64,000 nt of DNA from NCBI GenBank assembly GCA_029263195.1, contig JAJCXX010000028.1:1-64000 (forward strand), in the 5' to 3' direction. The translations under genes and the position numbers were made by a program. Below the pieces are notes generated by a model. That model made no database searches, was not told the DNA's origin, and worked only from the letters and a program-made list of their open reading frames with translations. Origin of the DNA: Acidimicrobiales bacterium. GTDB taxonomy: Bacteria; Actinomycetota; Acidimicrobiia; Acidimicrobiales; Aldehydirespiratoraceae. Positions 33,657-38,607 of this stretch are shown in pieces (position 1 is the stretch's first letter; every line of letters starts with the position of its first letter).

Positions 33657-35572
33657 TCAACCTCGACTCAAAGGTCCCGGACGGACCACTGGCCGACAAA
33701 TGGGACAACCATCGGTTCGCGATGAAGCTGATCAATCCCCCCAACAAGCGCAAGTTCAAAGTCATCGTCGTCGGCAGCGGCTTGGCCGGGGCCTCCGCCG
33801 CCGCATCCCTCGGCGAACTCGGGTACAACGTCGACGTCTTCACGTACCACGACTCACCCCGGCGGGCCCACTCCATCTCGGCCCAGGGCGGAATCAACGG
33901 CGCCAAGAACTACCAAAATGACGCTGACTCGATTCATCGTCTCTTCTACGACACGGTGAAGGGCGGCGACTACCGCTCACGCGAAGCCAACGTCTACCGA
34001 CTCTCCCAAGTGTCGGTCGACATCATCGACCAATGCATCGCTCAGGGCGTGCCGTTCGCCCGTGAATACGGAGGCCTTCTGGCCAACCGCTCCTTCGGTG
34101 GAGCCCAGGTCAGCCGGACCTTCTACGCCCGGGGACAAACCGGACAGCAGCTCCTGCTCGGGGCCTACCAGGCCATGGCCGCCCAGATCGCCACCGGAAA
34201 GGTCACTCTCCACAACCGATCCGACGTTCTCGACATCGTCACCAAGGACGGCGAGGCGTGCGGGGTGGTCGTGCGTGATCTCCTCACCGGCCAGGTGAGC
34301 TCTCACAGCGCCCACGCTGTGGTGCTGGCCACCGGCGGCTACGGCAACGTCTACTACCTGTCGACCAACGCTCTGGCCTGCAACGTCACCGCCTCGTGGA
34401 GGGCTCACCGCAAGGGGGCGGCCTTCGCCAACCCGTGCTTCGGTCAGATCCACCCCACGTGCATCCCAGCCGGCGACGAGTTCCAGTCGAAGCTCACCCT
34501 CATGTCGGAGTCGCTGCGAAACGACGGCCGGATCTGGGTGCCACGCGACATCGACGAATCACGCTCCGCCGACCAGATCTCCGAGGCCGAGCGCTACTAC
34601 TACCTCGAGGAGAAGTATCCGACCTTCGGCAATCTCGTGCCGAGAGATGTCGCTTCGCGCAACGCCAAGACCGTGGTCGATCAGGGCCACGGCGTTGGCG
34701 AACTCAAGAACGGCGTGTACCTCGATTTCGCCGACTCGATCGGCCGCGAAGGCATCGACGTGATCCGCGAACGCTACGGGAATCTGTTCGACATGTACGA
34801 ACGCATCACCGGCGAGGATCCCTACCGACAGCCGATGCGGATCTATCCCGCTTCGCACTACTCGATGGGTGGTCTATGGGTCGACTACAACCTCATGACC
34901 ACGGTTCCGGGCCTCTACGCCCTCGGCGAGTGCAACTTCTCCGACCACGGTGCCAACCGTCTCGGAGCGTCAGCGCTCATGCAGGGACTGGCCGATGGAT
35001 ACTTCGTGCTTCCCTACACGATCGGCGACTACCTGGCTCCCAAGCTGGGTAACGCCGCCATTCCGACCGACGACCCGGTGTTCACCGAAGCCGTGGCCGA
35101 GGTCGACACCCGAACTCGCCACTGGCTGTCGAAGTCGGGAACAAAGTCCGCCGATCACTACCACCGCGAACTCGGAACCGTCCTGCGCGACTACTGCGGC
35201 ATGGCCCGAGACAAGACCGGCCTCGAGAAGGCTCTGTCGGAAATCCCGGCCATCCGCGAAGAGTTCCGCAAGGATGTCAAGGTCCTGGGATCGGCCGACG
35301 GTCTCAACCAGTCGCTCGAGAAGGTCAACCGGGTCGACGACTTCATGGAGCTGGCCGAGCTGGTGGTGCGCGATGCCCTCGATCGCGAGGAGTCATGTGG
35401 CGCCCACTTCCGCGACGAAAGCCAGACCGACGAAGGTGAGGCCCTGCGCGACGACGACAACTACTCCTACGTCGCGGCATGGGAATGGAAGGGTCCCAAC
35501 CAACCCCAAGAGCTCCACAAGGAGCACCTCGAATTCGAGAACATCGAGCTGACCCAGCGGAGCTACAAATGA
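33653..35572 (+). CDS. sdhA: Succinate dehydrogenase flavoprotein subunit
   Basis: A 639-residue flavoprotein. The FAD-binding Rossmann motif [19 protein letters not shown] is at residues 38-56. His73 in [11 protein letters not shown] is the covalent FAD attachment residue. Also present are the substrate-site signatures HPTCIP and [19 protein letters not shown]. It oxidises succinate to fumarate in the citric acid cycle on the cytoplasmic face. The start overlaps sdhC and the end overlaps sdhB by 4 nt each, so translation is coupled. Confidence 0.96.
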
Positions 35573-36345
35573 GCAAGAACCTCGACCTCAAGCTGCGAAT
35601 CTGGCGACAGGACGGACCCGATGCGCCGGGCTCGTTCCTCGACATCGAAGCCAAGGGAATCTCGGAGGACGCTTCGTTTCTCGAGATGCTCGACACCGTC
35701 AACGAACGGCTTCTCGACGACGACGTCGAACCCATCAACTTCCCTCACGACTGCCGGGAAGGCATCTGTGGAACTTGCGGGATGATGGTTAACGGCCGGG
35801 CTCACGGGCCGGAGAAGGCCACCGCCACATGTCAACTCCACATGCGCAAGTTCGACGACGGCGACGAGATCACGGTGGAGCCTTGGCGGGCCGCTTCATT
35901 CCCGGTGATCAAGGACCTCGTGGTTGATCGCTCGCCTCTCGACCGCATCGTGGAGGCAGGCGGATTCATCAGCGCCCCCACCGGCACGGCCCCCGACGCC
36001 AACCAGATCCTCATCCCGAAGGAGGCGGCCGAGATGTCGATGGACGCGGCCTCCTGCATCGGCTGTGGTGCGTGCGTGGCGTCGTGTCCCAACTCGGCCG
36101 CCCAGTTGTTCACAGCGGCCAAGCTCACCCATCTCAACGTGCTGCCCCAAGGACAACCCGAGCGGTGGAAGCGCACCGAAGCCATGGTCGAGACCATGGA
36201 AGAGTACTTCGGGGCATGCACCAACCACGGCGAGTGCCACGAGGCCTGCCCGAAGGAAATCCCACTCGATTTCATCGCGTTCATGAACCGCGACTACATC
36301 AAGGCCAAGATCAAGAACCGGAGCCTGGCCAGTCAGATCAGCTGA
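35569..36345 (+). CDS. sdhB: Succinate dehydrogenase iron-sulfur subunit
   Basis: A 258-residue ferredoxin-type protein. The N-terminal [2Fe-2S] cysteines are in [15 protein letters not shown] and ATATC. The C-terminal clusters use [12 protein letters not shown] and [16 protein letters not shown]. It carries electrons from FAD to the cytochrome b. ATG 35569 overlaps the sdhA stop. A G/C hairpin follows the stop codon. Confidence 0.96.
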
Positions 36346-36351
36346 CGATCG

Positions 36352-36373
36352 GGAGTGGCGCCCCACCCACTCC
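36352..36373 (+). terminator. Short hairpin after sdhB
   Basis: GGAGTGG (36352-36358) pairs with CCACTCC (36367-36373) over an 8-nt loop, 6 nt after the sdhB stop. No U tract follows. Confidence 0.45.
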
Positions 36374-36405
36374 GAGAGGGCGATGGTCACGCTGCGAAGT
36401 TCTTC

Positions 36406-36750
36406 TTGACCTCGGGCCGATCCGGCGCGACTCTCGACTCATCACAGACAACGGGTTGGTCAGGAACACCCGCTCGAGACAAAGGTCTCGACTTCCAACC
36501 AACCCGGTGATGAAGGGAGGTTGGAGGCGCACCGACGACGGACCGACCCGGCCAGCGGGGAACGTCGCAACTGGTACGCAAAACTGACGCCGCTTCATCA
36601 CACGATCGGGACCGCTCCCACGAACTTCTCGCACCCCAGTGTTCCGACGAACACCTGGAGAAGCGCCTTGAGAGACGACCCGGATCCGAAGACGACTCGG
36701 CAGACGTCCTCCCTTCGTGGGCGAGGCGCTCCAGCCCCGGGGCGCCTCGT
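36406..36750 (+). ncRNA. Candidate structured RNA between sdhB and a convergent hydrolase
   Basis: This 418-bp gap has no credible gene but several paired elements. A 9-bp helix (36452-36460 with 36498-36506) encloses a perfect 7-bp hairpin with an AAAG loop (36474-36491). An alternative helix (36494-36500 with 36519-36525) competes with the outer stem. An 8-bp long-range helix (36617-36624 with 36714-36721) encloses a 9-bp hairpin with one bulge and a CGAC loop (36636-36658). A final hairpin, CGAGGCGC...GCGCCTCG (36722-36749), could terminate. TTGACC (36406-36411) with GACTCT 17 nt later could be a promoter. I could not match it to RNase P RNA, tmRNA or SRP RNA. The strand is inferred from the promoter and end hairpin. 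Confidence 0.35.
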
Positions 36751-36763
36751 TCCGCGTCAGGAA

Positions 36764-37651
36764 TCAGAGATGGTCGGCAGCCCGTTCACTCTCTGACAGA
36801 TGAAGCCTCAGCACCGCCCAGAGATCGTCGAAGAGGCGATCGGGAAATTCGTGACCGAGCCCTTCGACTTCGATCAGCACCGCACCAGGAATGCCCTCAG
36901 CCAGTACACGGCCGTGCTGGGACGGATACACCGGGTCGGCCGAGCCGTGCACCACCAAGGTCGGTGCCGAAATCGAGTCGAGCACATCGACCCTCGAATC
37001 CGATGAGTGAACCGCCACGCCGTGACCGGTCTCGGGGGCCCAGCCGGTGACAATCTCGGCTCGGGCCAGATCGTTCTGTGCGACATCGTCGAACGGGTAG
37101 AGCGGGCCGCACAAGATCCGTTGGAGATCGACGATCCACTGCTGGCGAACATCGTCTTCCGACGGCGGTCCCTCGAACAGCCGGACCATCATCTGTTCGA
37201 CGAAATCGTCGTCGGGACCCGGAAGGCGTTCGTCTCCGGCTCCGGCGGTGGTGCCCACCAACGTGAGCGAAGCGACTCTGCCCGGGTCGGTCATCGCCAT
37301 CACCTGGGCCACCATTCCTCCCATCGAACGGCCGATGAGATGGGCGCGATCGATGCCGAGTCGGGTCATGAGAGCCAGGGTGTCGGAGGCGAGATCATCG
37401 AGTTTGTAGGCGGAATCCGGTCCGAGATGAGTGGACCGTCCGCAGTCGCGATGGTCGAATCGGACCACCCGGTAGCCCTCCGCCAGAAGCGGTTCGACAA
37501 CCGCCGGGGTCCAGCGGAACCCGGGGCTGTCGGCGCCGGCCAGCAGCACGACCGTTGTTGCATCGTCGGGGCCACACACGTCGGCCCAGATGGTCACCGG
37601 GCCGACATCGACCGGTGTCCCTCGGTCTGCATCGGATGCCGCGTTCAACAT
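36764..37651 (-). CDS. Alpha/beta hydrolase
   Basis: A 295-residue hydrolase with nucleophile Ser in GRSMGGM, acid Asp in HGSADPVYP and His in GLGHEFPD. The oxyanion region reads LLAGADSPGFRW and FDHRDCGRS. The sequence resembles Acinetobacter/actinobacterial esterases related to aclacinomycin methylesterase RdmC and to poly-aromatic hydrolases; substrate unknown. ATG 37651 has TACCGT (37660-37665) 8 nt upstream on its strand, overlapping the -10 of the divergent DUF368 gene. Confidence 0.88.
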   Translation of the reverse strand: MLNAASDADRGTPVDVGPVTIWADVCGPDDATTVVLLAGADSPGFRWTPAVVEPLLAEGYRVVRFDHRDCGRSTHLGPDSAYKLDDLASDTLALMTRLGIDRAHLIGRSMGGMVAQVMAMTDPGRVASLTLVGTTAGAGDERLPGPDDDFVEQMMVRLFEGPPSEDDVRQQWIVDLQRILCGPLYPFDDVAQNDLARAEIVTGWAPETGHGVAVHSSDSRVDVLDSISAPTLVVHGSADPVYPSQHGRVLAEGIPGAVLIEVEGLGHEFPDRLFDDLWAVLRLHLSESERAADHL

Positions 37652-37659
37652 TGGTGTCG

Positions 37660-37669
37660 ACGGTACCCT
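37660..37669. promoter_or_regulatory. Overlapping divergent -10 boxes
   Basis: In ACGGTACCCT, TACCGT on the complement (37660-37665) and TACCCT on the plus strand (37664-37669) share the central TA. Each lies 8 nt from its start codon, ATG 37651 and GTG 37678. Confidence 0.6.
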
Positions 37670-37677
37670 CGGCCCTC

Positions 37678-38607
37678 GTGATCCCCAAGACGGTTTCTCA
37701 GGTCATACGCGGCTTTGCCATGGGTTCGGCTGATGTCGTCCCCGGTGTCTCGGGTGGCACCGTGGCACTGGTTCTGGGAATCTACGAGAAGCTCCTCGAC
37801 ACGATCCGCGATGGCGCCAGGGCCCTCGGAACCCTCCTCCGAGGTGACTTCACCGGGTTCCGTCGACGCCTTGGGGCTCTCGATTTCGGCTTCATCGTGC
37901 CGCTGCTCGCCGGAATCCTGTTGGCGGTGGTGAGCCTCGCTTCGGTGATTCAGACCCAGCTTCACGACAACCCCGAGAACATGGCCGGCTTGTTCTTCGG
38001 GCTCGTTCTCTCATCGGTGGTGGTCGCATTCCGGTTGCTACCCGACCGCAAGCTCACCGACCTCGCCCTCATCGCGGCGGTTGGTGCTGTGGTGTTCGTC
38101 GCCCTCGGCTCGCAGTCGGGCCCAATTGCCAACCCCTCGCCCTTGGCCTTTCTCGGCGCCGGTGCGCTGGCCGTGTGCGCCATGATCCTGCCTGGCATTT
38201 CCGGATCGTTCATCCTTCTCATGCTCGGCATGTATTCGGCGGTGATCGGGGCCGTCGACGATCGGGCGTTGGGAGACGCCGCCCTCGTCGCCATCGGTGC
38301 CGTGATCGGACTCGCTGTTTTCTCGAGCTTTCTGGCGTGGATCCTCGAACGCTCCTTCGGCCCGGTGATGGCCATCCTGATCGGGATCATGGTCGGCTCG
38401 ATGCGGGTGTTGTGGCCCTGGCCCAATGGGGTCGGTGTAATCAGCCGCGACCAGACCGATGTCGTGTCGGGCACCGGTCTCGACTGGCCGGGCTCCGGTG
38501 AGTGGTTCCAGCCCACCGCGCTCGCCGTAGCGGCAGCGGTGGTGGTGCTGGTGTTCGCTCACTTCGCCGAATCGAAGACTCCGGTCGAGTCGGCCGGCAC
38601 GACATGA
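37678..38607 (+). CDS. DUF368 membrane protein (undecaprenyl-phosphate translocase-type)
   Basis: A 309-residue polytopic protein. The two family motifs appear as an inverted pair: GSADVVPGVSGGTVAL near residue 15 and ILPGISGSFILLMLG near residue 175. DUF368 (PopT) members have been reported to recycle undecaprenyl phosphate across the membrane for wall synthesis. About nine helices are predicted. GTG 37678 is chosen because TACCCT lies 8 nt upstream; GTG 37654 is possible. It overlaps the next gene by 4 nt. Confidence 0.88.
   Translation: MIPKTVSQVIRGFAMGSADVVPGVSGGTVALVLGIYEKLLDTIRDGARALGTLLRGDFTGFRRRLGALDFGFIVPLLAGILLAVVSLASVIQTQLHDNPENMAGLFFGLVLSSVVVAFRLLPDRKLTDLALIAAVGAVVFVALGSQSGPIANPSPLAFLGAGALAVCAMILPGISGSFILLMLGMYSAVIGAVDDRALGDAALVAIGAVIGLAVFSSFLAWILERSFGPVMAILIGIMVGSMRVLWPWPNGVGVISRDQTDVVSGTGLDWPGSGEWFQPTALAVAAAVVVLVFAHFAESKTPVESAGTT

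Follow-up and report, generated by a model that had tools for sequence, protein, structure and literature searches.

Nearly all 6S RNAs have a length of 150–210 nt (PMC4191392). Ms1, found in mycobacteria and streptomycetes, is about 300 nt long and folds into a long hairpin that has a bubble at its center; the bubble and its flanks are the most conserved parts, and Ms1 adjoins a HAD hydrolase (PMC4191392, PMC9130861). RAPP is a ribosome-arrest motif (PMC10951233), and ApdA and ApdP are arrest peptides (PMC10951233, PMC7897499). Almost nothing was found in the literature on regulatory RNAs of Acidimicrobiia. Spot 42 is a CRP-repressed sRNA of enterobacteria.

The RNA described here is an undescribed RNA of about 310 letters that is present in some Acidimicrobiia beside sdhB, which encodes part of succinate dehydrogenase, an enzyme of energy metabolism. 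Judged from sequence comparisons, it is almost certainly a real structured RNA gene, and it probably is a regulatory RNA. The analysis started from a 64,000-nucleotide stretch of DNA (termed the window) from an Acidimicrobiales bacterium whose genome is a 3.63-Mb draft with 94.6% completeness.

Searches of Rfam at curated and loose thresholds, using the window and distant relatives, gave chance-level matches only, in agreement with the initial annotation, which had found no match to known RNAs. RF00013 (6S RNA) has no match in the whole genome; thus the 6S role may be open in this organism. The RNA is similar to 6S RNA in having a rod with an internal loop, but differs in its length of about 310 nt. 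In addition, 6S RNA consists of a single long hairpin whose ends are paired and whose center carries a bubble, whereas the RNA here has several domains, i.e. a separate 5′ domain, and a hairpin and a rod inside a closing helix.

The likeness to Ms1 is in a stand-alone RNA of ~300 nt in Actinomycetota, a conserved internal bubble with conserved double-strand flanks, and small hairpins besides the rod. However, the RNA here adjoins sdhB, the genome carries its HAD hydrolase homologues on other contigs, and a separate large 5′ hairpin domain is not enclosed by the closing helix. Compared with the published description of the Ms1 hairpin, the bulged core and the length fit and the overall shape differs. 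By analogy, the RNA may work like Ms1. With Spot 42 it shares a CRP-like site over the transcript start in relatives and a possible link to succinate dehydrogenase, but the site is missing in the genus of the window.

The sdhB locus and its neighbors

The gap at positions 36346-36763 lies between sdhB (35569..36345, + strand; Pfam 2Fe-2S and 4Fe-4S domains) on one side and a convergent alpha/beta hydrolase gene (36764..37651, − strand; assigned by Pfam Abhydrolase_1 and synteny) on the other. All RNA features given below are on the + strand. The RNA is single-copy, as a 418-base query matches the genome once. Beyond the hydrolase at positions 37660-38604 (+ strand) there is a VCA0040-like gene (PF04018, undecaprenyl phosphate translocase-like), and in some genomes of genus g2 such a gene appears to lie directly 3′ of the RNA on the same strand.

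Among 100 relatives, similarity to the gap DNA is found 3′ of sdhB, with 95, 82 and 81% identity within the same genus; many further genomes of the family show a weaker similarity after sdhB. In the first 20 loci of relatives, 17 of the 20 adjoin sdhB and the other three adjoin the hydrolase. The nearest relative displays an identity of 96.8% in the RNA, 93.9% in sdhB and 90.0% in the hydrolase; in two more distant relatives of the genus these values are about 80–82%, 83% and 70–72%. The conservation of the RNA is thus close to that of a core enzyme gene and exceeds that of the neighboring hydrolase.

The gap could also be a functionless 3′-UTR or a bidirectional terminator region of the sdhB and hydrolase genes. 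The gene ends are convergent and the terminator hairpin in the window has few T's, as this would predict, but the sequence has its own promoter with invariant spacing and most of its helices covary. Moreover, the nearest relative conserves the RNA more than sdhB, and the RNA is retained at genus g2 loci, where the hydrolase was not found. A functionless region is therefore considered very improbable.

Predicted promoter, transcript ends and start-site palindrome

A TTGACC box, noted in the initial annotation, is present at positions 36406-36411 and represents a predicted −35 box. It is followed, after a 17-base spacer, by a predicted −10 box, GACTCT (consensus NANNNT), at positions 36429-36434, which was assigned from conservation. 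The arrangement TTGAC, 17-base spacer and NANNNT is found in 20/20 sequences of the family of the window (termed the first family), and GCGCGA precedes the −10 box in most of them. In a second family of the same order, TTGAC is present in nearly all of the 17 sequences and the spacer is likewise 17 bases long wherever the promoter could be aligned.

The start was set 7 bases downstream of the −10 box, and the predicted transcript then encompasses positions 36441-36750, about 310 nt, as delimited by the promoter, helix P1 and the terminator. The terminator in the window has a short T run only; several relatives end in TTTT. A promoter and terminator of its own with conserved spacing characterize the locus as a predicted stand-alone sRNA gene. 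Synteny, covariation and the invariant promoter spacer give good support to two initial proposals, that of a structured RNA in the gap after sdhB and that of a promoter-body-terminator layout for a stand-alone RNA about 310 nt long.

A palindrome, GTGA-N6-TCAC, overlies the likely start, always at the same position, in 14/20 first-family sequences (L013-L019, L021-L027) and in 2/17 second-family sequences (L146, L147); it is missing in the genus of the window. The palindrome resembles a CRP/FNR site, which suggests control by a regulator of the CRP/FNR type.

Predicted fold

The 5′ hairpin domain (positions 36441-36511) consists of P1, P2 and P2b, and a similar hairpin is predicted in most relatives. 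P1 pairs 36441-36445 with 36507-36511. P2, CGGGTTGGT/ACCAACCCG, is a 9-bp helix (36452-36460/36498-36506) that shows covariation: 59/63 cells are paired with 15 double changes, as compared to 49.8 and 4.1 after shuffling. P2b, TCGAGAC/GTCTCGA, has 7 bp and an AAAG loop (36474-36480/36485-36491), with 95% of cells paired in relatives. Thus both the 9-bp outer stem and the AAAG hairpin of the initial annotation are present. The domain is reduced to P1 and a short loop in L019 and is shortened in L020, with P1 kept. Genus g8 sequences (L022, L023, L027) have extra sequence between P1 and P2, which can form a small hairpin.

An alternative stem had also been proposed, in which positions 36498-36506 would switch to pairing with 36519-36525. 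The partner sequence, GGTTGGA, is present at 36519-36525, but only the window and its closest relative show a strong switch stem; it weakens in the other members of the genus and outside it. Similarly, a helix between GUGAUGAAG (36507-36515) and CUUCAUCAC (36593-36601), which we take to be the long-range helix meant initially, is present in the minimum-energy fold but is lost outside the genus. It was rejected because it competes with P1 and P3, both of which covary.

The long-range helix adopted here, P3 (GAAGGGAGG/CCUCCCUUC), closes a body that contains a bulged rod. Its 5′ arm, GAAGGGAGG, at positions 36512-36520 is also Shine-Dalgarno-like and pairs with the 3′ arm, CCTCCCTTC, at 36708-36716; 94% of cells are paired and 3/5 pairs show double changes. 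Within the body, the P4 hairpin around CCGGCCAGCGG (approximately 36533-36567) has conserved pairing, with 96.5% of cells paired and A-U/G-C exchanges in 2/3 pairs.

The core rod (positions 36608-36681), common to both families, is made up of P5 (36608-36610/36679-36681), a conserved internal loop, P6 (36625-36630/36658-36665, with mismatches at its base in the window) and P7 (36639-36644/36649-36654). The internal loop, ACCGCUCCCAC / AGAGAGACGA, is flanked by a nearly invariant UUCUC/GAGAA helix. By eye, a further helix (P8) that seems to close the rod can be discerned in many relatives, but it was not counted as shown since it is only about 4 bp and weak in the window and has a small margin over swapped partners (6.6 vs 5.9).

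The terminator hairpin (approximately 36719-36751) shows covariation, with 99.6% of cells paired and double changes in 9/12 pairs. The initial annotation was right about a strong terminal hairpin, but its length is 12 + 2 bp and not 8 bp. Of the chain of compatible helices described initially, P2, P2b and the terminator stand; the switch and the long-range helix to 36593-36601 do not.

A helix and an internal loop, and not an open seed, contain the most conserved sequence, and this bears on a further explanation, that of a trans-acting base-pairing sRNA. Its C-rich unpaired segments, ACACCCGCU in the 5′ domain and CCGCUCCCACG in the core, would pair with G-rich ribosome-binding sites, possibly those of mRNAs for energy metabolism, by analogy with Spot 42. 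In favor of this, these segments are conserved, a CRP-like palindrome overlies the start site of relatives, and the RNA adjoins sdhB. The near absence of the 5′ domain in L019 and its shortening in L020 speak against such pairing, as does the fact that the most strongly conserved part is helical. Action by base pairing is thus regarded as possible, at well below an even chance.

Covariation and controls

Twenty relatives were aligned from promoter to terminator. RNAalifold yielded 39 pairs with this alignment, 22 of which show changes on both sides in one or more sequences. With the 5′ helices included there are 49 pairs in 9 helices, and 96.0% of cells are paired with 103 double-change cells; a shuffled control gave 88.5% and 32.8. 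When partners were slid by 1–3 columns pairing was only 38–49%. This last control is inflated because the structure was derived from the same sequences, and independent support was therefore sought.

Taken singly, the 5′ domains of most relatives are predicted to adopt similar hairpins. The double changes in P2 add to this support, as does the retention of P1 in L019 and L020, where nearly all and much of the inner 5′ hairpin, respectively, is gone. Across both families, 84% of the core is paired vs 32–53% when slid, with 63 double-change cells vs 22.9 in shuffled sequences. A core model gave scores of 43–80 bits with 11 sequences not used to build it, ten of these from the second family. In G011, a genome outside the alignments, the promoter, P1, P2, P3, P4, the core and the terminator are recognizable by eye. 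The window stretch also folds better than its shuffled versions (z = −3.13; 0/100 as good), although this minimum-energy fold draws in promoter bases from before the likely start. Absence of covariation in relatives, against which the initial proposal was to be checked, is excluded, and the comparison shows a predicted fold under selection for structure.

Distribution among genomes

With the core model, 21/40 genomes of the window's family score at least 67 bits and the remainder 26 bits or less. The RNA is present in genera g1, g2, g7, g8, g9 and g10. In genera g3, g4, g5 and g6 a more permissive family search found nothing above 22 bits, so that a relocated copy in these genera is improbable, although it could exist. 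In genus g6, some of the genomes lacking the RNA have repeated units with AATCTCGGG...CCCGAGAT just after sdhB (L056-L058).

In the second family, 18/41 genomes score about 43 bits or more, and several copies were confirmed to be in the sdhB gap. When 395 genomes sampled from the class and 396 from the phylum were searched, nothing else convincing emerged, although this is a weak test in view of its strict filters and its ten candidates per genome. Weak model matches in other families and orders (L161-L165, L170) are all at 31 bits or below. L161-L165 were read as chance matches, as L161 overlaps long open reading frames and several alignments drop or break the core hairpin.

A pattern scan of named genomes gave 15 acidimicrobial or actinobacterial records and three that are chance-like (two haloarchaea and one Dehalococcoidia). 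The matching records of relatives carry the names Acidimicrobiaceae, Acidimicrobiia and Acidimicrobiales, and one is named as an Actinomycetes bacterium.

A small open reading frame in the second family

A coding gene in the window was rejected: the RNA differs by frameshifting indels of 1 and 2 bases between members of the genus, and two open reading frames tested across it have no Pfam match. In the second family, on the other hand, all 17 sequences (L133-L149) display an open reading frame that starts with GTG or ATG and has 16 codons, or 32 in two cases. It ends 21–25 bases before the core region, in most cases with RAPPxx. The start lies at ribosome-binding spacing behind a purine-rich stretch, the counterpart of which forms P3 in the window. 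(It should be noted that the frames of L134 and L135 were read by eye, since the script picked another frame.) In the first family, L025 has a 15-codon version, also read by eye as MPTAVEPDERAPPAT; the window has no small open reading frame ending in RAPP.

The RAPP motif in the second family and in L025 is a likeness to ApdA and ApdP; the window differs from these systems in having neither such a frame nor a regulated same-strand gene directly 3′ of the RNA. These observations raise the question of whether the RNA is a relative or remnant of a small-ORF RNA. Its ancestor would have encoded a 15–16 codon RAPP arrest peptide behind a Shine-Dalgarno sequence partly complementary to a 3′ CCUCCC, and the window would have kept the RNA and the long-range helix and lost the open reading frame. 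The occurrence of the frame throughout the second-family sequences and the alternation of its start codon between GTG and ATG fit this ancestry. However, substitutions are nearly even over the codon positions (277, 263 and 325), the bases of the RAPP stretch can also form an RNA hairpin, and the window is without the frame and without a same-strand gene immediately 3′ of the RNA to regulate. Descent from a small-ORF RNA is thus considered unlikely, and the small open reading frame is treated as a lead.

Proposed mode of action

In the proposed model a single-copy, independently transcribed structured RNA gene would act in trans as a regulator. The rod core, with its internal loop and UUCUC/GAGAA helix, would be presented to a protein, much as with 6S RNA or Ms1, and in most first-family relatives outside the genus of the window the start-site palindrome would place the RNA under the control of a CRP/FNR-type regulator. 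As a whole, the statement of a stand-alone, trans-acting structured RNA gene whose core is presented to a protein is offered tentatively, at just short of an even chance. The short T run of the terminator and the lack of the palindrome in the window's genus count against it. Protein binding as the main mode of action is plausible at somewhat less than even confidence; the C-rich unpaired stretches fit pairing with mRNA equally well.

A broader proposal is that the RNA is the founding member of a new Acidimicrobiia RNA family that fills the place of 6S RNA and Ms1, with second-family relatives that double as messengers for a RAPP arrest peptide and couple ribosome stalling to RNA folding. This is speculative and quite unlikely to hold in full. 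An RNA with this much covariation is nevertheless a sound starting point, as it offers a defined gene, a structure, and two lineages, one with and one without the small open reading frame. If the RNA binds RNA polymerase, it would bear on how bacteria with no recognizable 6S RNA accomplish the task of that RNA. If the small open reading frame is translated, the locus would be a further dual-function RNA, one that carries a ribosome-arrest motif.
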